From the IMG/VR virus record IMGVR_UViG_3300034073_002560, positions 1 through 27,941 of that record: a stretch of DNA of 27,941 nt, one strand, 5' to 3'. This document shows positions 3,403 to 20,232 of the stretch, piece by piece; position 1 is the stretch's first letter; each line of letters begins with the position of its first letter. This DNA is from a virus. The notes under the pieces were generated by a model that saw only the letters and a program-made list of their open reading frames with translations, had not been told where the DNA came from and did not search any database. The position numbers and the translations under genes are program-made.

Positions 3403-4643
3403 GTCTACTATCAAAGCGAGAAGCATATGAAGAGTTTGCTCCACTAGTTAATAAGGATAGTGTGAGTAAGGAGATATTGCAGATAGTGGAGGACATGGGA
3501 GCATATTACAAAGCCTTTCCAGCGAGAGACAGTGTGAGTTGGGAGGGGCTTTCCATACTGATAAAGGTGAAGTTGCACCCCAAGTGGTCTGCTGATAAGT
3601 ATGTGATACACGACTCCATCATTGCCGAGGCAGCAGCATATGAGATGGTGCCTGATGTAGAGTGGGTGTTGAAGAAAACATTATTAGAAAGAGAGATGGC
3701 AATCAAGGTAGGGGAGGCTGCATTACGGATTGCTGATGGGCATGGAGGAACCATCACAGATGTGTCCAAGTTGGTGGAGGAGTGGGAAGTTAAGGCTGAA
3801 ATGAATAAGCCAGAGGACACCATGCTGGTTACGGATAGTATTGAGGACATGGTTAGGTTGACATCTGCTAGTGCAGGGTATAAGTGGAGACTACCAGAAC
3901 TTAATGCAGCCCTTGGTCCTATTAACAAAGGGAAGCTGGTGATAGTTGCAGCACGGCCTGACACAGGGAAGAGTGGGTTTATGATGAGTGAAGCTACACA
4001 CATCCTCCTTCAACTACCAAAGGAGAAACACCTAGTGTGGTTTAACAATGAGGAGGAGGGAGTGGTAGTTAAGAAGCGTATCATCTGTTCCCTGCTAGGT
4101 ATATCAGGAGATGAGTTTGATGCCAACCCTGTTGCCACTAAGAAGATGGTTGAGGCGTTGATTGGGGACGTGGGACGCATAAAGTTTATTGATGCCCCAG
4201 CCCTAGACATTTTTACTATTAGTAAGTTTTTGAAGAAGTGGGATGCTGGATTGATTGTTATTGACCAGCTATGGAAGGTGCATGGGTTTGGGAAGATTGC
4301 TACTAATGAAGCCTCCCGTACCACCCTGCTGTATGGGAAGGCGAGAGAATGGGCAAAGCAATATGCCCCTGTGATGGTGGCTGCACAGGCAGGAGGGGAG
4401 GCAGGAGGGGAGAAGTGGATTGGGATGGAGCACATCTATGGCAGCAAGACGGGAGCACAGGGAGAAGCAGATGCCATCATTACTATTGGTAGAAGTTATG
4501 ACCCAGAGGTGAGAGCAGATGCTAGATTTATTAACATAGTAAAGAATAAGTTTCCTCATCCAGAGGATGAAGCACTACGCAATGGTAAGTTTGAGGTAAA
4601 AATCCACCCCACTATAGGTAGATATAGTGGATATGTTGAATAG
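3387..4643 (+). CDS. Replicative DNA helicase, DnaB/T7 gp4 type
   Basis: A 418-residue RecA-fold hexameric helicase expected to unwind the fork 5' to 3'. Walker A is ARPDTGKS (189-196). WFNNEEE (218-224) carries the catalytic glutamate, Walker B is LIVIDQ (D293), the H3 glutamine is in VMVAAQAGG (Q334), and an H4-like YGSKTGAQGEADAI follows. About 160 residues before the ATPase form an all-helical region. The start overlaps the primase stop by 16 bases, with CAGGAG upstream, so the two are likely translationally coupled and may form the two halves of a primosome. Confidence 0.92.
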   Translation: MHALLSLLSKREAYEEFAPLVNKDSVSKEILQIVEDMGAYYKAFPARDSVSWEGLSILIKVKLHPKWSADKYVIHDSIIAEAAAYEMVPDVEWVLKKTLLEREMAIKVGEAALRIADGHGGTITDVSKLVEEWEVKAEMNKPEDTMLVTDSIEDMVRLTSASAGYKWRLPELNAALGPINKGKLVIVAARPDTGKSGFMMSEATHILLQLPKEKHLVWFNNEEEGVVVKKRIICSLLGISGDEFDANPVATKKMVEALIGDVGRIKFIDAPALDIFTISKFLKKWDAGLIVIDQLWKVHGFGKIATNEASRTTLLYGKAREWAKQYAPVMVAAQAGGEAGGEKWIGMEHIYGSKTGAQGEADAIITIGRSYDPEVRADARFINIVKNKFPHPEDEALRNGKFEVKIHPTIGRYSGYVE

Positions 4644-4653
4644 GAGAAATGCT

Positions 4654-5943
4654 GTGTTCACATATTGTGTCATTGATCTTGAAACATCCATTCACAACAA
4701 TGGTGATGGCGCTGTGGGTAACATGGCGGCTAGCCCATTCAATAAAAAGAATTGGATAGTGCATGCTGGGATGAAGTTTGAACATCGTCCCCATTCATTT
4801 GTTTATTCATGCAAGGAAGAGTATGGTAAGTATGAACGTGGACAAATTATTGAGCCTGTTCTGCGAGCACTCCGGGCAAACAATGTGGACATGTTAGTGG
4901 GACACAATATCAAGTTTGATATTCTTTATCTACTACGTTATGAAGAGTTCCGTGATTGGTATTTGAATAACAACATTTCCATTATGGATACTATGCTGCT
5001 GGAATATATTATTACAGGACAGCATCACACCATGGCTTCTCTTGATTCATTGATTGAGAAGTATAAGGCAGGGGAGTTGAAAGACTCCCGCCTGAAAGAG
5101 CTATGGGTGAAGGGTGTTTCCACAGAAATGATTGATGATGACATTGTTCTGCCATACTTAGGACATGATGTGTTATCAACAGAGAAAGTGTTTAACTCGC
5201 AGCTAAATGTATTATCAGAAATAAACACACGCTACCCTGCCCAAACACCAGAGAAAATGTTTCGTTTGTGTGAAGTTCAGATGAGAGCCTTACAAGCAAC
5301 CATTATGATGGAACATTATGGGATGGCTTTTGATAAAGATGGAGCTACAGATTATGAGATACATGAGCTACGCCCACAGCTTAGAGAGGTGGCAACAAAT
5401 ATATTGGGGCTGGTTGAAGCATACCTTCCTGACCATCTGGAGGATGGGGTGACAGATGCTAACATCTCTACCCTATTATTTGGTGGTAAGAGAAAGGTAA
5501 AGGTGGATGTTGAAATGAAGGATGAGAACGGAGAGACAATTAGGTATAAGACAGGGACAAAAGCAGGTATGCCTAGAACTAAGAAGGGGACGGAGATTAG
5601 GGAATATCCACCAGCGTTTGATAGCACTGTGTTGACGATGTATATATCAAAATATGGAGAACTACCAGCACAGAATAAGACAACGGAGTTGTATGTAGTG
5701 AATGATAGTGTTCTTAGTAATATTAAAAAGATAATATTTGGGACGGGGGTTTTGTCATTGTGTGATATGGTGTTGGAATACAGGAAGCTGAACAAAGACA
5801 TCTCCACATATTTCAAAGCCTATTGTGCATTGACATGGCCCGATGATGGCTGCATACATCACTCACTACACCATGCTGTAACAGCAACAGGGAGACTATC
5901 TTCAGCTAGCCCTAACCTACAGAATGTAACATCTTCTGATTAG
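4654..5943 (+). CDS. DNA polymerase family A, exonuclease half
   Basis: The N-terminal part (429 residues) of a T7-type DNA polymerase. All three 3'-5' exonuclease motifs are present: IDLE (D8, E10), GHNIKFD (N85, D89) and YLGHD (Y168, D172). The chain ends in TGRLSSASPNLQNV plus four residues, which in one-piece family A polymerases leads straight into the palm; the palm is encoded by the next gene at 6077. GTG 4654 is preferred because AGGAG lies 7 bases upstream. In-frame starts at 4627 (GTG) and 4633 (ATG) lack a good ribosome site and overlap the helicase. The missing polymerase motifs mean it should need the second polypeptide to synthesise DNA. Confidence 0.9.
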   Translation: MFTYCVIDLETSIHNNGDGAVGNMAASPFNKKNWIVHAGMKFEHRPHSFVYSCKEEYGKYERGQIIEPVLRALRANNVDMLVGHNIKFDILYLLRYEEFRDWYLNNNISIMDTMLLEYIITGQHHTMASLDSLIEKYKAGELKDSRLKELWVKGVSTEMIDDDIVLPYLGHDVLSTEKVFNSQLNVLSEINTRYPAQTPEKMFRLCEVQMRALQATIMMEHYGMAFDKDGATDYEIHELRPQLREVATNILGLVEAYLPDHLEDGVTDANISTLLFGGKRKVKVDVEMKDENGETIRYKTGTKAGMPRTKKGTEIREYPPAFDSTVLTMYISKYGELPAQNKTTELYVVNDSVLSNIKKIIFGTGVLSLCDMVLEYRKLNKDISTYFKAYCALTWPDDGCIHHSLHHAVTATGRLSSASPNLQNVTSSD

Positions 5944-6076: not shown

Positions 6077-6949
6077 ATGTCTAAGATTAAAGCATTCTTT
6101 AAGAGTAGATGGGGAAATGAAGGGAGTATAGTTAATGCAGATTATTCTCAGCTAGAAGTAATAGTATTGAGTGTTCTTAGTGGAGATAAGATATTGCAGG
6201 AAGATGTTAGGACAAAGGATATGCACTGTATGTCAGCAAGTTTCTTACTAGGAGAACCTTATGAGAGAGTTAAGAATGCTGTTACTGAAGGTGTTGCATA
6301 TTATGTTTCTGCCAGAAAGAAAGCTAAAGCATTGTCCTTTGCCCTTCAGTATGGTGCTGGTAGCACTACCCTTGCAGCTAATACAGGACTTCCTTTATCA
6401 CAGGTTACAACATTCATCTCTAACTATTATGATAGATATAAAATATTAAAAGCATATCAAGAGAAGTTAAGAGAAACTGTTTCAGCCAACTCTATCCCAT
6501 TCATCAATCATGGAGCTAAGGGACAACAATACATATCACACTATTGTTCTCCTACAGGAAGAGTGTATACATTTCTTCAGCAGCCTAGTACATATGGGGT
6601 GGAGCCTTTCAGCTTCTCCCCAACCACTATAAAAAATTACATGACGCAGGGAACAGCAACAGGAGACATAGTGCCTCTGGCTATAGCAGACCTATACACC
6701 AAGCTGTATTGCGGGAAAGGGAAGGAGGGGAATAGGGAGAAAATATTATTAGTAAATACTATCCATGATAGTGTGATGCTAGATGTGCACGATAAGGTGC
6801 TTGACAGGGCTATCCAGATGGTATATGATACCCTTACTGGAGTAGTAGGGAGGATTGAGGAGATATGGGAATGGGAGTTTCCTATGCCTCTGGGAGTAGA
6901 GGTTAGCGTAGGGAAAACTTGGGAATCACTTTCACCAGTAAAAGTTTGA
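6077..6949 (+). CDS. DNA polymerase family A, palm/fingers half
   Basis: The C-terminal part (290 residues) of the polymerase. Motif A is ADYSQLE (D22), motif B (finger O-helix) is RKKAKALSFALQYG (R80, K84, Y92), and motif C is IHDSV (H230, D231). These are the catalytic residues for two-metal nucleotide addition. It begins SKIKAFFKSRWGNEG, which in one-piece relatives follows directly after the PNLQN stretch that ends the upstream gene, so little or nothing is lost at the break. Combined length (about 719) matches T7-type polymerases. It has its own AGGAG ribosome site. The two chains probably assemble into one enzyme; a spliced or bypassed single chain cannot be excluded from sequence alone. 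Confidence 0.9.
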   Translation: MSKIKAFFKSRWGNEGSIVNADYSQLEVIVLSVLSGDKILQEDVRTKDMHCMSASFLLGEPYERVKNAVTEGVAYYVSARKKAKALSFALQYGAGSTTLAANTGLPLSQVTTFISNYYDRYKILKAYQEKLRETVSANSIPFINHGAKGQQYISHYCSPTGRVYTFLQQPSTYGVEPFSFSPTTIKNYMTQGTATGDIVPLAIADLYTKLYCGKGKEGNREKILLVNTIHDSVMLDVHDKVLDRAIQMVYDTLTGVVGRIEEIWEWEFPMPLGVEVSVGKTWESLSPVKV

Positions 6950-8242: not shown

Positions 8243-8344
8243 GCCGGGGTTGCTAATGTTGGAATAAGAGGGAGCCTTATAAACTCCTAAAGCAATCTCC
8301 AGATAAGAGATGTAACGTGGGTTCGATTCCCACCCCCGGTACCA
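8243..8344 (+). tRNA. Atypical tRNA gene, 102 nt, anticodon uncertain
   Basis: The acceptor stem GCCGGGG/CCCCGGT (7 bp, G1:U72), T arm GTGGG-TTCGATT-CCCAC, A73 and an encoded CCA are all canonical. The lower half allows two foldings. In the first, GGAGC-CTTATAA-ACTCC is the anticodon arm (one C:A mismatch, U33 present, anticodon UAU), followed by a 29-base variable region with an ATCTC/GAGAT stem. In the second, GCT (8252-8254) and AGC (8291-8293) close the D arm around an extra hairpin, ATCTC-CAGATAA-GAGAT is the anticodon arm (anticodon GAU but A at position 33), and the variable loop is a normal GTAAC. Neither is fully standard. It lies 19 bases before an RNA ligase gene. Confidence 0.65.
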
Positions 8345-8363: not shown

Positions 8364-8912
8364 ATGTTCAAGCCTTGGCCTAAAATTCCTAGATTGTCCA
8401 ATGAAAAGTTTTCCATCACTGAGAAGATAGATGGGACTAATGCTTGTATTGTGTGTTCGTACACAAATGAAACATGCAACCCACCCATCGCAACCATCCT
8501 TACTGAGGTTGGGCCTTTGAATATCTGGGCACAATCTCGTACCCGGTTTATAACCCCAGAGAGCGACAACTTTGGTTTTGCTAAGTGGGTACAGAATAAT
8601 TCTTTGGAGTTGGCGACCATTGGTCAGGGGCACCATTATGGTGAGTGGTGGGGACAGGGAATCCAGAGAGGATATGGAATGCCAGAGAAAGTGTTTAGTC
8701 TGTTCAATCCATTCATCACATCAAGTGTTACTAGGAATGTTCCTGTTCTGGCTGATGACATTTCATTTGAAATGCTCCCCACCATCATTGAAGATTGTCG
8801 CAGGTTCCTCCTCACTAAGGGAAGCCTAGCTAATCCAGGGTATGATAAGCCAGAAGGACTCATTGTACATGCCAAGCTGTCTCACGTAAGGTTTAAGATA
8901 ATTTTCCAGTAG
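8364..8912 (+). CDS. Minimal RNA ligase (Rnl family)
   Basis: A 182-residue nucleotidyltransferase of the RNA/DNA ligase superfamily. Motif I is EKIDGTN with the AMP-accepting K21, an SRTRF stretch (58-62) follows, motif III is GEWWG (E94), a FSLFNPF stretch resembles IIIa, motif IV is EGLIVH (E164), and a motif V-like RFK ends at K178. The chain stops four residues later, so there is no C-terminal domain as in T4 Rnl1 or Rnl2. The GEWWG and KxDGTN forms favour RNA ligase over DNA ligase. It probably seals nicked RNA. Its place between an odd tRNA and a cluster of tRNA-like RNAs suggests tRNA repair or maturation. No polynucleotide kinase is seen in the window. Confidence 0.85.
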   Translation: MFKPWPKIPRLSNEKFSITEKIDGTNACIVCSYTNETCNPPIATILTEVGPLNIWAQSRTRFITPESDNFGFAKWVQNNSLELATIGQGHHYGEWWGQGIQRGYGMPEKVFSLFNPFITSSVTRNVPVLADDISFEMLPTIIEDCRRFLLTKGSLANPGYDKPEGLIVHAKLSHVRFKIIFQ

Positions 8913-9136: not shown

Positions 9137-9301
9137 ATGAATTTCCAAAATGAGCTAATACTAGCCCTAGAAGACATGATTGGTTTGGTGTTGTTTAAGG
9201 ATGAGTTTAGGGATGATCCTATATTGCATCATGCTATACAGGTGTATAGAATAGTGGTAGAGTCGGGGGCAGTTGATTCAGCATTCTATGAAGATGATTA
9301 G
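9137..9301 (+). CDS. Small hypothetical acidic protein
   Basis: A 54-residue acidic helical protein (MNFQNELILALEDMIG...), not recognised. ATG 9137 is chosen because ACTAGGAATACTAAA supplies an AGGA ribosome site; the frame stays open upstream to 9053 but would overlap the previous gene. It is the last coding gene before the 571-base RNA-rich stretch. Confidence 0.6.
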   Translation: MNFQNELILALEDMIGLVLFKDEFRDDPILHHAIQVYRIVVESGAVDSAFYEDD

Positions 9302-9374
9302 TGTATAAAAGGTTACACGCCTCTGCTTGCAAGCGCACCATGTAGGCATGATGTTGTACAGCATACATGCACAG
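9302..9374 (+). other. Non-coding leader of the RNA cluster
   Basis: No convincing gene. Right after the upstream stop, GTGTA (9301-9305) and TACAC (9314-9318) can form a hairpin. GCTTGCAAGC (9325-9334) is a perfect palindrome. CATGTA and TACATG (about 9339-9369) can close a longer imperfect stem. It is probably the 5' part of the structured RNA region that follows. Confidence 0.4.
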
Positions 9375-9408
9375 CCTGAGCATGCTTCCTATAAAAACGG
9401 CTCAACTA
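9375..9408 (+). repeat. RNA leader repeat, copy 1, before first tRNA-like gene
   Basis: It begins CCTGAGCATG, has an AAAAAC run and ends GCTCAACTA one base before the tRNA-like 5' end at 9410. TGAGC (9377-9381) can pair with GCTCA (9400-9404). Alternatively GCATG (9380-9384) pairs with CATGC upstream (9366-9370). The two pairings exclude each other. A second copy stands at 9711-9739. Confidence 0.6.
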
Positions 9409-9409
9409 T

Positions 9410-9490
9410 GACAACCGTGGTGTAAAGGTAGCACCCGCTAGGGTAAACTCCGGGGCGGGGTACAGGTTCGACTCCTGTCTGTTGTCACCA
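9410..9490 (+). tRNA. tRNA-like RNA, normal D and T arms, odd anticodon region
   Basis: The D arm GTGT-AAAGGTA-GCAC has A14, G18G19 and A21. The T arm ACAGG-TTCGACT-CCTGT, U8, A73 and encoded CCA are canonical. The acceptor is 8 nt per side, GACAACCG/CTGTTGTC, with 6 bp, one C:U mismatch and a G:C pair. The anticodon region (9435-9461) is 27 bases where 23 are usual and gives no clean 5-bp/7-nt arm. The best folds are a CCGCT/GGCGG-type stem with a 14-base loop, or CTAGG/CCGGG with one A:G mismatch and loop GTAAACT. So the amino acid cannot be assigned. It ends 3 bases before the next tRNA-like RNA. Confidence 0.6.
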
Positions 9491-9493
9491 AAT

Positions 9494-9597
9494 GGGGACG
9501 TTAGGACAACTCTGACTTGGGGGTATCCCGTACACGGGAAGTGGTTCAGAATTTACCTAAGTCAGCGTGGTGGGCGCGAATCCCACAGTCTCCACCA
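9494..9597 (+). ncRNA. tmRNA-end-like, alanine-acceptor-like RNA without message domain
   Basis: The 5' end GGGGACGTTA and 3' end GTCTCCACCA form an acceptor stem with G3:U70 and A73, the alanyl-tRNA synthetase identity elements. The ends resemble, from memory, bacterial tmRNA (GGGGACGTTA...CCGTCTCCACCA). The T stem is GTGGG/CCCAC, but the loop is CGCGAAT, losing T54 and T55. In place of a D stem there are 11 bases. In place of an anticodon stem there is a 10-bp helix (9512-9521 with 9556-9565, one G:U), as P2 does in tmRNA. Inside lies the hairpin TCCCG-TACA-CGGGA. There is no room for a tag reading frame. A decayed tRNA is the alternative. Confidence 0.5.
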
Positions 9598-9612
9598 CGG
9601 AAACCGGATGAA

Positions 9613-9706
9613 TTAAGCAGGCCGCAGATGGGCGCACTAAACCCCTATAGCATAGGGTAAACACCGCCTGAGATAGCTACTCAGCAGGTCAAGTGTCACT
9701 GCTTAT
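9613..9706 (+). ncRNA. Structured non-coding RNA between tRNA-like genes
   Basis: TAAGCAG (9614-9620) and CTGCTTA (9699-9705) form a 7-bp closing helix. Within it, GGCG/CGCC (9631-9634 with 9665-9668) encloses a strong hairpin CCCTAT-AGC-ATAGGG (9643-9657). CTGAG-ATAGCTA-CTCAG (9668-9684) follows, with the size of an anticodon arm. The layout is cloverleaf-like, but there is no T arm and no CCA. It may be a processed RNA, a linker or a decayed tRNA. Confidence 0.35.
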
Positions 9707-9710
9707 GTAT

Positions 9711-9739
9711 CCTGAGCATGATACAAAACTGCTCAACTA
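9711..9739 (+). repeat. RNA leader repeat, copy 2, before last tRNA-like gene
   Basis: CCTGAGCATG...AAAACT...GCTCAACTA ends one base before the tRNA-like 5' end at 9741, as copy 1 does at 9410. TGAGC (9713-9717) pairs with GCTCA (9731-9735), or TGTATC (9706-9711) pairs with GATACA (9720-9725); the two exclude each other. The shared core is identical while the flanking arm differs yet still pairs. Confidence 0.6.
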
Positions 9740-9740
9740 A

Positions 9741-9841
9741 GACACCTGTGGCTGAATATGGCAAAGGAATAGGGAGGAGTTGGTACCGAGGCGCAAGCCA
9801 TGCGCAGGCTTCGCGGGTTCGAGTCCCGTCAGGTGTCGCCA
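9741..9841 (+). tRNA. tRNA-like RNA with 8-bp acceptor and odd lower half
   Basis: The acceptor GACACCTG/CAGGTGTC pairs perfectly over 8 bp, followed by G73 and encoded CCA. The T arm is GCGGG-TTCGAGT-CCCGT. U8 and a Ser/Leu-like start (TGGCTGAATATGGCAAAGG) suggest a type II tRNA, but no matching D-stem 3' strand exists. No anticodon arm is found where expected. The only good hairpins are GCGC-AAGCCAT-GCGC and, overlapping it, AAGCC-ATGCGCA-GGCTT. The second has U33 and would read GCG, but it leaves one variable-loop base. An 8-bp acceptor recalls tRNA-Sec, yet no UCA anticodon is present. Amino acid unknown. Confidence 0.5.
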
Positions 9842-9872
9842 AATTCATTACTAGTACTAAAAAGGTGAGTGT

Positions 9873-11467: not shown

Positions 11468-11544
11468 GTCCCCGTAGCTCAATAGGATAGAGCAACAGCC
11501 TTCTAAGCTGTAGGTTGCAGGTTCAAGCCCTGCCGGGGACGCCA
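11468..11544 (+). tRNA. tRNA-Arg (anticodon UCU)
   Basis: A complete canonical cloverleaf: acceptor GTCCCCG/CGGGGAC, D arm GCTC-AATAGGATA-GAGC, anticodon arm ACAGC-CTTCTAA-GCTGT with anticodon TCT, variable loop AGGTT, T arm GCAGG-TTCAAGC-CCTGC, G73 and encoded CCA. It reads AGA (and AGG by wobble), which is frequent in several genes here such as the methyltransferase at 21842. It is the only fully normal tRNA in the window and contrasts with the odd ones at 8243-9841. Confidence 0.97.
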
Positions 11545-17179: not shown

Positions 17180-17384
17180 TTCTTGGAAAGACTATGGACG
17201 TAGTGCTGTAGACAAGGTGATGCGGAAGAGTGTAGTTAGTGAGAGAAAGATAATGGAGAATAAGGTATGTCCTACTTGCGATGGGTATGGGTATTTCAAT
17301 GTGTCTGATAACGATGAAGGGCCTATCCAACCTGTCTTCTGTAAAACGTGCAATGGTGAAGGGGAAGTGTATGTCAAACTATGA
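17172..17384 (+). CDS. Small protein with DnaJ-type zinc motifs
   Basis: A 70-residue protein with two CxxCxGxG motifs, CPTCDGYG and CKTCNGEG, the zinc-binding repeat of DnaJ cysteine-rich domains. Two such motifs are enough for one zinc. No J domain is present. GAGGTGTGTT precedes ATG 17172, which is preferred over ATG 17160. It overlaps the reductase start by 14 bases, so it may be co-translated with that enzyme. Confidence 0.7.
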   Translation: MGNSWKDYGRSAVDKVMRKSVVSERKIMENKVCPTCDGYGYFNVSDNDEGPIQPVFCKTCNGEGEVYVKL

Positions 17385-20232
17385 GGAGAGAGCAGCAGAG
17401 ATAACGGAGGGGTATGGTAATTACATACACCTCTCCAGATATAGCCGTTGGATAGAGGAGGAGAATAGACGAGAGACATGGCCTGAAACTGTACGTCGTT
17501 ACATTACATTCTTCAAGGATAGGTTTAGTGAGCACGGTGATGTGTGTGCCCAGCTCGATATTGCAGAGCAATATATTCTTAAGAAGGAAGTGATGCCCTC
17601 AATGCGTTGTCTTATGACAGCAGGGAAAGCATTGGAGCGTGATAACATTGCTGGTTTTAATCCAGTGGTGGGTAATACAAAGGTGGTAGTACGCAACATC
17701 GGCAACATCCCAATTAAATATCTACATGAGGGAGAAACTTATGAGGTGTTGAATGTAAATAAAGAATGGACAGAAGCAACCTTTAAGTCGTATGGTATAC
17801 AAGACACTTACAAAGTGGTTACTAAACTCAACAGTAACACAGTGAAAGAAGTTGAATGTACTGCTAACCATCGCTGGGTATTGCTTGACGGGACTGTTAA
17901 GGCAACCTCTGAGTTATCTAAGGGTGATCGGCTACCATTTGCTTCAGCAAAGAAGCCAGAGATTGATGATGACTACTACTTAGGTATCCAGCATGGTATC
18001 GTGTACGGGGATGGTACAGCATCAAAAGCAGCAAAAAGAATTAAAGGATACGTTGTAAGATTGTGCGGACAAAGTAGAGAACTACTTTCCTACTTCAAAA
18101 ACTATCCTATCACGTACCCACCCTCTACAAATGGTGATCCATTAGTACAGATGTATGACGCATTTGCTGCCACACACGCTCTAAAAGAACTTCCTAGTAA
18201 TGGAGAGACAGACAGCTATTTACTTGGTTTCATCCGTGGGTGGATGGCTGCTGATGGTAGTGTTGGGAAGACTAGCTATGTTACCTTGTGTGTAAATGAC
18301 ATTGGTAAGAAGTGGTTGGAAACCTTTAGTGAAAGACTTGGTTTTGTAATACAACATATTAGAAAACAGTCTTCAGAAACCAATTATGGAAAGAGAACAC
18401 GCGATAGTTACATCATCTCTTTCAGTAGGAGTAGCATCACTGAGGATGATTTGCTCTGCTCATGGAAAAGAGAAAACTTCAAGTCGTTACAATCACACTA
18501 TGTAGTTTCTGAAGTAATCCCTACTGGAAATAAAGAGGAAGTGTTTTGTGCTGAAGTGCCTGAAACAAACACCTTCACTCTTGCTGGAGGATTAGTTACT
18601 GGTAACTGTTCAGCTATTGCTATTGATAATGTTAGGGCATTTGATGAGGTGTTGTATACACTGATGTGTGGCACAGGCGTTGGGTTTAGTGTGGAGAGAC
18701 AATATGTTTCCAAACTCCCAGAAGTTGCAGAAGCAATGTACCAAACAGACACGACAATCATTGTTGAAGATAGCAAGATTGGCTGGGCTAAATCCTACAG
18801 AGAACTCATCCAGCTTTTGTATGCTGGTCAGATGCCACGATGTGATGTGTCTAAGGTTCGGCCAGCAGGCTCTAGGCTCAAGACTTTTGGTGGACGAGCG
18901 AGTGGACCCAAGCCTCTGGTAGATTTATTCAAATTCACCGCTGATGTTTTTAGTAAGGCTGTTGGGCGTAAACTATCTAGCATTGAATGTCACGACATTG
19001 TATGTAAAATTGCAGAGGTGGTGGTGGTAGGGGGAGTGAGACGTAGTGCCCTCATTTCCCTATCCAATCTATCAGATGATAGAATGAGAGAGGCTAAGAG
19101 TGGTATGTGGTGGGATGCCAATCCACAGAGAGCATTGGCGAATAATAGTGCTGCGTATACAGAGAAACCAGACCTCTCTATATTTATGAAGGAATGGGTT
19201 AGTTTGTATAACAGCAAGAGTGGGGAGAGAGGGATAGTGAATAGGGTGGCTTTTGATAAGCAGGCTGCTAAGTATGGTAGGCGTGCTCCATATAATAATG
19301 GCTTCCTAACTAACCCGTGCGGTGAAATAATTTTGAGGAGTGGGCAAGTGTGTAACCTCACGGAGGTGGTGGTGAGGAGCTACGACAATTGGGAAACTCT
19401 ATCAGAGAAGGCAGAGATAGCTTCCTTCCTAGGAACATTACAGGCTAGCCTAACAGACTTCCGCTACCTTCGTAGTGTGTGGAAACGTAACACAGAAGAG
19501 GAAGCATTGCTAGGCGTTAGCCTAACAGGCGTGATGGACAACCCCCTAACCTACACAATAAACGCTAAATTAAAGGAGATGCTGAATGACCTACGCCAAA
19601 CAGTTGTGGACATTAACAAGAAATGGGCTGCCACTATCGGTATTGCTCCTTCTGCTGCTACTACTGCTAACAAGCCCTCTGGTACTGTTTCACAATTGGT
19701 GGATTGTGCCTCTGGCATTCATCCCCGGTACGCTTATCACTATGTGCGGAGAGTTCGTAACGACAAGAAAGACCCTCTTTCCCTATTGATGAAGGACATG
19801 GGGATTCCCTGTGAGGAAGACAAACTAAACCCTAACGCTTATGTATTCAGCTTCCCTATGCGTGCCCCAGAGGGAGCCATTACAACAGCCTCTCTTTCTG
19901 CACAGTCACATCTGGAATTGTGGAAGGTGTATAGGGATTATTGGTGTGAGCACAATCCCTCCGTCACTGTCAGCTATAGTGATGATGAGTTTTTGGGAGT
20001 GGGTGCATGGGTGTGGGAGAATTGGGAGAATGTAGGGGGGATTAGTTTCCTCCCTCGTAGTGAGCATGTATACGCTCAAGCACCCTATGAGGCTATTACA
20101 GAGGAGACATGGAAGGCTATGGTAGATGCTATGCCTAAGCTGGATTGGAGCAAGCTGAAGGAATATGAGAGTGAGGATAATGTTACTAATACAAAAGAAC
20201 TAGCCTGCACAGCAGGCCATTGTGAACTATAG
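17371..20232 (+). CDS. Class II (B12-dependent) ribonucleotide reductase with intein
   Basis: A 953-residue precursor that becomes a 638-residue enzyme after a 315-residue intein leaves. It reduces ribonucleoside triphosphates using adenosylcobalamin. Active-site residues match the Lactobacillus-type monomeric enzyme: first redox Cys in GFN/CSAIA (precursor C413, right after the intein), thiyl Cys and Glu in NPCGE (C650, E652), second redox Cys in CNLTE (C661, 11 residues later as in the family), and a C-terminal relay pair in ACTAGHC (C946, C951). ATG 17371 with AAGGGG upstream is chosen; the frame is open to 17281 but overlaps a gene. It supplies dNTPs with or without oxygen, provided the host makes or imports B12. 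Confidence 0.93.
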   Translation: MSNYEERAAEITEGYGNYIHLSRYSRWIEEENRRETWPETVRRYITFFKDRFSEHGDVCAQLDIAEQYILKKEVMPSMRCLMTAGKALERDNIAGFNPVVGNTKVVVRNIGNIPIKYLHEGETYEVLNVNKEWTEATFKSYGIQDTYKVVTKLNSNTVKEVECTANHRWVLLDGTVKATSELSKGDRLPFASAKKPEIDDDYYLGIQHGIVYGDGTASKAAKRIKGYVVRLCGQSRELLSYFKNYPITYPPSTNGDPLVQMYDAFAATHALKELPSNGETDSYLLGFIRGWMAADGSVGKTSYVTLCVNDIGKKWLETFSERLGFVIQHIRKQSSETNYGKRTRDSYIISFSRSSITEDDLLCSWKRENFKSLQSHYVVSEVIPTGNKEEVFCAEVPETNTFTLAGGLVTGNCSAIAIDNVRAFDEVLYTLMCGTGVGFSVERQYVSKLPEVAEAMYQTDTTIIVEDSKIGWAKSYRELIQLLYAGQMPRCDVSKVRPAGSRLKTFGGRASGPKPLVDLFKFTADVFSKAVGRKLSSIECHDIVCKIAEVVVVGGVRRSALISLSNLSDDRMREAKSGMWWDANPQRALANNSAAYTEKPDLSIFMKEWVSLYNSKSGERGIVNRVAFDKQAAKYGRRAPYNNGFLTNPCGEIILRSGQVCNLTEVVVRSYDNWETLSEKAEIASFLGTLQASLTDFRYLRSVWKRNTEEEALLGVSLTGVMDNPLTYTINAKLKEMLNDLRQTVVDINKKWAATIGIAPSAATTANKPSGTVSQLVDCASGIHPRYAYHYVRRVRNDKKDPLSLLMKDMGIPCEEDKLNPNAYVFSFPMRAPEGAITTASLSAQSHLELWKVYRDYWCEHNPSVTVSYSDDEFLGVGAWVWENWENVGGISFLPRSEHVYAQAPYEAITEETWKAMVDAMPKLDWSKLKEYESEDNVTNTKELACTAGHCEL
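17662..18606 (+). mobile_element. Class 3-type intein with LAGLIDADG endonuclease
   Basis: A 315-residue intein in frame. Block A is PVVGNTKV, so residue 1 is Pro, not Cys or Ser. Block B TANHRW has T67, H70 and W72. Block F is EVFCAEV with C296, and block G is GGLVTGN with T313 and terminal N315. W-C-T at these places is the triplet of class 3 inteins, where the block F Cys does the first step. The +1 residue is Cys, whereas Ser or Thr is usual in class 3. Two LAGLIDADG motifs, LGIQHGIVYGDG (107-118) and LGFIRGWMAADG (188-199), mark a DNA endonuclease for homing. Confidence 0.92.

Follow-up and report, generated by a model that had tools for sequence, protein, structure and literature searches.

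It has been described that metagenomes contain irregular allo-tRNA-like RNAs (Mukai et al. 2017, as described in PMC7609411). According to the accessible part of PMC7609411, allo-tRNAs have a 12-bp acceptor branch of 8/4 or 9/3, and the irregular ones also of 9/4; the word 'phage' is absent from the main text of that article. For phages, the accessible part of PMC10264068 reports tRNAs with altered anticodon loops which evade host nucleases and replace cleaved host tRNAs. The RNA described here, at positions 9741-9841 of a virus record, would be best filed with the irregular allo-tRNA-like RNAs, to which it seems closest in kind, but it is 8/5 and phage-borne.

The window, i.e. the whole stretch of DNA analysed, is a linear virus record of 27,941 bases. 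Its gene content and best polymerase matches put the virus near Zobellviridae, e.g., the Vibrio phages ICP2 and VP41s3. Genes for a CobS-like ATPase, a primase, a helicase, a split DNA polymerase and an exonuclease are present; the polymerase is distributed over two ORFs (4627-5943 and 6077-6949), and a 983-aa ribonucleotide reductase ORF (17281-20232) looks, by eye from its translation, as if it contained an intein. AUA is a common codon in the window: of 429 Ile codons counted over 25 ORFs, 160 are AUA. An RNA ligase gene (8364-8912; phrog_548; 46.9% to mycobacteriophage RNA ligases) adjoins tRNA-like RNAs and would be consistent with a repair of tRNAs that counters anticodon nucleases. The region 9302-9872 holds no listed ORF of at least 60 aa; its coding strand carries several tRNA-like RNAs. 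Across the window, ARAGORN called only 9410-9490 and 11468-11544.

The first-pass annotation had described 9741-9841 as a tRNA-like RNA with a perfect 8-bp acceptor, a T arm, G73 and CCA, and the sequence bears out each of these elements (Table 1). When a perfect 8-bp acceptor, a 5-bp T stem, a TTCRA loop and NCCA were demanded together, the combination matched once in the window and in none of 1000 dinucleotide-shuffled windows, both strands being scanned. The acceptor stem, T arm and CCA are thus those of a canonical tRNA, with an acceptor of 8 bp where the canonical length is 7. Folding software, which had been named as the check, gave no assignment as an ordinary tRNA: ARAGORN made no call at 9741-9841, and Rfam RF00005 scored 27.3 bits, below its cut-off of 29. 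Because of the shuffle test, the ARAGORN miss and the Rfam score below cut-off, we conclude that the upper half is real and that 9741-9841 is no ordinary tRNA.

Table 1. Features of the 9741-9841 RNA, of its neighbours in the window and of the related RNA in the phage record L030.
Feature	Coordinates	Strand	Basis and remarks
Acceptor, 5' strand GACACCTG, 8 nt	9741..9748	+	8/8 Watson-Crick with 9830-9837
Acceptor, 3' strand CAGGTGTC (9830-9837), discriminator G73 (9838), CCA (9839-9841)	9830..9841	+	sequence
T arm GCGGG-TTCGAGT-CCCGT	9813..9829	+	sequence; 5/5 pairs, the outermost G.U
Putative insertion between acceptor and D-like arm (preferred reading), ~25 nt	9749..9773	+	sequence; energies of hand-written structures; inference
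D-like arm GAGG-AGTTGGTA-CCGA	9774..9789	+	two G-C pairs, tandem G.A, canonical-type D loop AGTTGGTA
Anticodon-arm candidate GGCGC-AAGCCAT-GCGCA	9790..9806	+	4/5 pairs (4 G-C), A33 for U33, would-be anticodon GCC
Alternative helix TGGCT/AGCCA, 5' strand	9749..9753	+	3.3% of shuffles; paired in alignment to model R1
Alternative helix TGGCT/AGCCA, 3' strand AGCCA	9796..9800	+	3.3% of shuffles; alignment to model R1
Alternative hairpin AAGCC-ATGCGCA-GGCTT	9795..9811	+	pair probability 0.92-0.94, free ensemble
Leader hairpin CTGAGCATG...GCTCA	9712..9735	+	5 bases upstream of 9741-9841
Same leader hairpin CTGAGCATG...GCTCA, before 9410-9490	9376..9404	+	pattern and alignment
Same leader hairpin, before L030 mini-tmRNA	L030:11443-11471		pattern and alignment
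tRNA-like RNA, 8-nt acceptor strands (7/8 paired), CCA	9410..9490	+	ARAGORN: Phe (aaa)
tRNA-like RNA: G3.U70, A73, CCA, T loop CGCGAAT, 10-bp internal helix, one acceptor mismatch	9494..9597	+	sequence
79-nt tmRNA-like RNA	L030:11475-11553		Rfam tmRNA end to end, 66.3 bits (cut-off 47)

Like the irregular allo-tRNAs, 9741-9841 has a longer acceptor stem, would lie in a polycistron of irregular tRNAs and failed the ordinary tRNA rules, and the insertion in its lower half is a possible equivalent of their extra loop between acceptor and D stem. Unlike the allo-tRNAs, with which it was compared by description, its acceptor branch amounts to 13 bp. The combination of an 8-bp acceptor with a 5-bp T stem is also found in tRNA-Sec, but 9741-9841 has neither the 6-bp D stem nor the UCA anticodon, and no long variable arm can stand while the anticodon candidate is formed; Rfam tRNA-Sec gave no reported match at 9741-9841, lower-scoring matches of the same clan being removed by the tool. 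With the tRNA-like domain of tmRNA it has in common an acceptor and T arm without a decoding arm, and its leader is also that of the 79-nt RNA of L030; in contrast to tmRNA, it carries C3-G70 for G3.U70, G73 for A73 and no tmRNA D-loop motif. Rfam tmRNA likewise had no reported match there after removal of lower-scoring clan matches. As for the replacement tRNAs, to the extent that the accessible part of PMC10264068 describes them, 9741-9841 resembles them in being phage-encoded with a changed anticodon loop, but it has no loop fit for decoding.

Three mutually exclusive readings of the lower half were obtained: D and anticodon arms in tRNA register, a TGGCT/AGCCA helix, and the hairpin 9795-9811. 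In the register reading, which we prefer, the D-like arm and the anticodon-arm candidate would stand behind the insertion and in register with the T arm, leaving a variable loop of 6; the insertion contains a possible extra hairpin, GCT-GAATAT-GGC (9751-9762). The rule for this register, written post hoc after the element had been seen, was satisfied by 391 of 20000 shuffled middles (2%) and, among ordinary class I tRNAs from the compared records, by 39 of 67; longer tRNAs and tRNAs lacking a clear T arm had been dropped from this control. It is on this difference that we base the tRNA-register reading. The earlier statement that there is no recognisable anticodon arm and no closing D stem can consequently be kept in part: no standard anticodon arm was placed by the tools and the D stem is weak, but a 4-pair A33 hairpin (9790-9806) lies in register, as does a D-like arm with two G-C pairs and a loop of canonical type. 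Two overlapping, mutually exclusive hairpins had been seen as the only structures of this region; both exist (9791-9805 and 9795-9811), but TGGCT/AGCCA is a third option, and it excludes the two of them. The free ensemble favours hairpin 9795-9811 in a fold that breaks the T arm, which is formed 3% of the time. The middle of 9741-9841 folds no better than its own shuffles (z 0.08), a value that is no proof of absent structure because the middle of the RNA at 8243-8344 likewise gives 0.1 despite a structure supported by covariation. No 5-bp hairpin with a 7-nt loop, U33 and a purine at 37 was found within 9749-9812; therefore, ordinary decoding is unlikely whichever fold holds. A serine-type reading, with an 8/5 acceptor branch and 9795-9811 as variable arm, was also tried and stayed unproven, pair 2-71 being A-U and no anticodon arm being left.

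Among the records compared, the leader hairpin was found only before 9410-9490, before 9741-9841 and before the mini-tmRNA of L030; its pattern occurs once in the full L030 contig and not at all in four other relatives. The leader links 9741-9841 with a small group of tRNA-like RNAs across two distant phages. Mainly on the basis of the leader, together with common GACA...TGTC ends, 9410-9490 and 9741-9841 may be suggested to be paralogues. If they are, compensatory double changes separate them at acceptor pair 5 (A-U versus C-G) and T-stem pair 51 (A-U versus G-C), and acceptor pair 7 has changed between C.U and U-A. Such differences would lend modest support to helices having been kept during sequence drift. 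The anticodon region of 9410-9490 is itself unusual, with AAA and C37 in ARAGORN's placement. The third RNA, 9494-9597, is possibly the counterpart of the L030 mini-tmRNA; its tmRNA match is weak (9.2 bits versus a cut-off of 47). The upper half, which had been proposed to be kept in the odd RNAs of this region, is intact at 9741-9841 and less clean in these two neighbours, with one acceptor mismatch each.

Relatives had been proposed as a check on the acceptor pairing, and none carrying 9741-9841 was found in the searches. Blastn of 9735-9845 against phages matched 256 records, and the 40 of these 256 matches that were listed covered only the T arm and the 3' side of the acceptor. With 9720-9812 there was no match in phages, with 9300-9740 there were two short, weak phage matches and nothing usable, and with 9600-9845 against plasmids 5 records matched on the T-arm side only; exact patterns of 9741-9841 had no match in viral contigs and genome contigs.

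Polymerase relatives in IMG/VR were represented by the best 80 of 583 loci, and these together with others made up the 110 records (1.10 Mb) scanned for upper halves, the results for L001, a copy of window sequence, being left out. Among the 80 polymerase loci, L030 alone has a tRNA-like upper half that ARAGORN misses. L030 is the nearest relative found, with 41% polymerase identity as the best polymerase match; the near relatives L031 and L033 have closely packed ORFs at the corresponding place. In the 79-nt RNA of L030, 308 interior positions of the tmRNA model are reduced to 14 bases while G3.U70 and A73 are retained, and the gene neighbourhood matches that of 9741-9841. Judged by its alignment to the model, this RNA is a tmRNA pared down to the tRNA-like domain; therefore, RNAs reduced to the upper half occur in this phage group. 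Other RNAs missed by ARAGORN, with an intact acceptor and T arm and an enlarged lower half, were seen at L008:573-669, L011:1675-1786 and L020:7104-7225 (-). At L008:573-669 it is the D arm that is enlarged, and the RNA reads as a tRNA-Ser, scoring 40.1 bits with Rfam tRNA; the other two are below every Rfam cut-off there; L020 also carries a GOLLD RNA. Permuted-type tmRNAs were observed in Synechococcus phage S-CAM3 and Achromobacter phage JWDelta (L113, L114), the one of S-CAM3 being partly overlain by an annotated hypothetical protein.

The explanation that we favour, while holding it tentatively, is that 9741-9841 is an irregular phage tRNA, most likely non-decoding, whose acceptor/T half is maintained. 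It is based on the intact and unique upper half, the shared leader and the compensatory differences from 9410-9490, and its non-decoding part on the fact that standard tools place no anticodon arm. The register reading and the L030 RNA, reduced to an upper half, point the same way. Against the explanation stand the lack of a homologue in the searches, the post hoc nature of the register rule, the competing TGGCT/AGCCA helix, the T arm formed in 3% of the free ensemble, and a paralogy with 9410-9490 that depends mainly on the leader. The RNA would be transcribed together with the other members of the cluster 9410-9841, and tRNA-type maturation would follow, the acceptor/T minihelix directing the 5' cut at G9741 and the CCA being already encoded. 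The maintained part would be the 8-bp acceptor and the 5-bp T arm, and the rest a tRNA lower half displaced by the insertion of ~25 nt and damaged or changed where decoding needs it, namely by A for U33, the mismatch 27-43 and the weak D stem. If active, it would work by way of its acceptor/T half, serving as substrate or decoy for factors that recognise nothing beyond this half; candidates are RNase P, EF-Tu, anticodon-independent synthetases, and defences that cut tRNA ends or sense tRNAs. The upper half, the leader, the cluster and the failure of standard tRNA models are seen directly; expression, processing, loss of decoding and any function are what we infer for this RNA from its sequence. 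A lower half set free altogether, as had been proposed, was not upheld, weak D and anticodon arms in canonical register behind an insertion fitting as well.

The same damage could belong to a decaying pseudo-tRNA. On this view, an insertion or recombination scrambled the lower half of an ordinary phage tRNA that is now functionless, erosion not having reached the upper half so far. Phage tRNA arrays frequently lose genes, and the weak D stem, the mismatch 27-43, A33, the lack of a homologue in any search and a middle structured no more than chance all agree with decay, as do two tandem D-like segments which resemble a join between two tRNA halves. Since the searches gave no relative, we regard this as a real possibility, nearly as likely as the maintained tRNA. 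However, the acceptor (8/8), the T stem (5/5) and the CCA are all intact, the differences from the presumed paralogue 9410-9490 are compensatory, and the leader is common to 9741-9841 and the tmRNA-like RNA of the relative, all of which argue for maintenance.

A further fold to be weighed comes from the tRNA-Ile-like RNA at 8243-8344. Its family comprises 24 records in the phage collection and, with a strict pattern, 12 stretches in IMG/VR, and its hosts are Autographiviridae, Drexlerviridae, Schitoviridae, Ounavirinae and Stephanstirmvirinae phages. Across an alignment of 17 members, pairing holds in 98.9% of 442 cells and compensatory changes are present in 17 of 26 pairs, a covariation that none of 500 shuffles reached. 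The kept-upper, freed-lower pattern, which had been proposed for the odd RNAs of the window, fails here: the lower half is the conserved, covarying structure, the middle sequence being almost fixed and the acceptor free to vary. The helix after the acceptor is invariant or nearly so, and the hairpin loops CUUAUA and CAGAUAA stay unchanged in all 17 aligned members. The first, covarying hairpin presents the UAU (AUA) anticodon loop CUUAUA(C/A), with U33, and the second CAGAUAA, the tRNA-Ile GAU loop with A33. In the context of the second hairpin, the IleRS identity features A73, U12-A23, C29-G41, A37 and A38 are found. It is possible that such RNAs are charged via one hairpin and decode AUA via the other. 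ARAGORN misses them at the loci scanned (the window and L006-L025), and some depositors annotate tRNA-Ile. The literature search found no description of the family in the portions of the sources that were accessible; a metagenomic allo-tRNA-UAU with possible five-stem junctions is, however, mentioned in the accessible part of PMC7609411. These conserved RNAs near 9741-9841 deserve more attention than 9741-9841 itself.

Like the 8243-8344 family, 9741-9841 belongs to the same phage, is about 100 nt long, is missed by ARAGORN, and has a possible post-acceptor helix and an A at the U33 position of the hairpin before the T arm; unlike the family, whose acceptor has 7 bp, it contains neither the family hairpins with their two loops nor the sequence blocks. 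The idea that the two RNAs have a D-loop insert motif GGAATA..GGGAG in common was dropped, that stretch being unconserved among the 8243 relatives; a search with the pattern gave 3 loci, judged on inspection to be chance. In principle, 9741-9841 could be a working tRNA with an unusual fold of this kind, in which TGGCT/AGCCA, a helix resembling the post-acceptor helix of the family, encloses the middle and the anticodon hairpin sits in a non-standard place. The covariance model of the family (R1) aligns 9741-9841 with this helix paired (24.8 bits, E 4.5e-4), and the helix arises in 3.3% of shuffles. We consider this improbable: an ordinary tRNA-Arg obtains 37 bits with the same model, so that the score reflects mostly general tRNA-likeness, both family hairpins are absent, and the middle has no 5-bp hairpin with U33 and purine 37.

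Minihelices suffice for RNase P, and 9741-9841 might serve solely as processing punctuation, its minihelix directing RNase P and 3'-end nucleases and thereby freeing the RNA of 9598-9740 and the downstream mRNA. In its favour, the 143 nt of non-coding sequence at 9598-9740 begin directly after the CCA of 9494-9597 and end directly before G1 of 9741-9841; against it, the freed stretch is only weakly structured, and we consider the proposal quite improbable. Within it, 9606-9711 has a closing helix around AAGCAG/CTGCTT and a folding z of -1.06. An assembly artefact, with halves of two different tRNAs brought together in a chimeric contig, would agree with the single linear record and with D-like segments standing twice in tandem, but is scarcely credible, as unrelated halves would not yield a perfect 8-bp acceptor across the junction and the neighbours at 9410-9597 are likewise odd.

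Beyond the maintained irregular tRNA, a wider idea, which we regard as doubtful, is that the acceptor/T half is a common handle in a set of phage RNAs whose lower half has been swapped for other modules. The set would comprise the two Ile-type hairpins of 8243-8344, the tRNA-like domain of the tmRNA of the relative, and the 25-nt insertion with the A33 hairpin of 9741-9841, and such RNAs might be mimics that target the tRNA or ribosome-rescue machinery of the host, or defences watching it.

Standard tRNA finders miss 9741-9841, and the same blind spot conceals clearly conserved neighbouring RNAs. If 9741-9841 is expressed, phages would retain acceptor halves of tRNAs for non-decoding use, and arrays of irregular tRNAs, reported from soil metatranscriptomes, would now be found in a phage genome.
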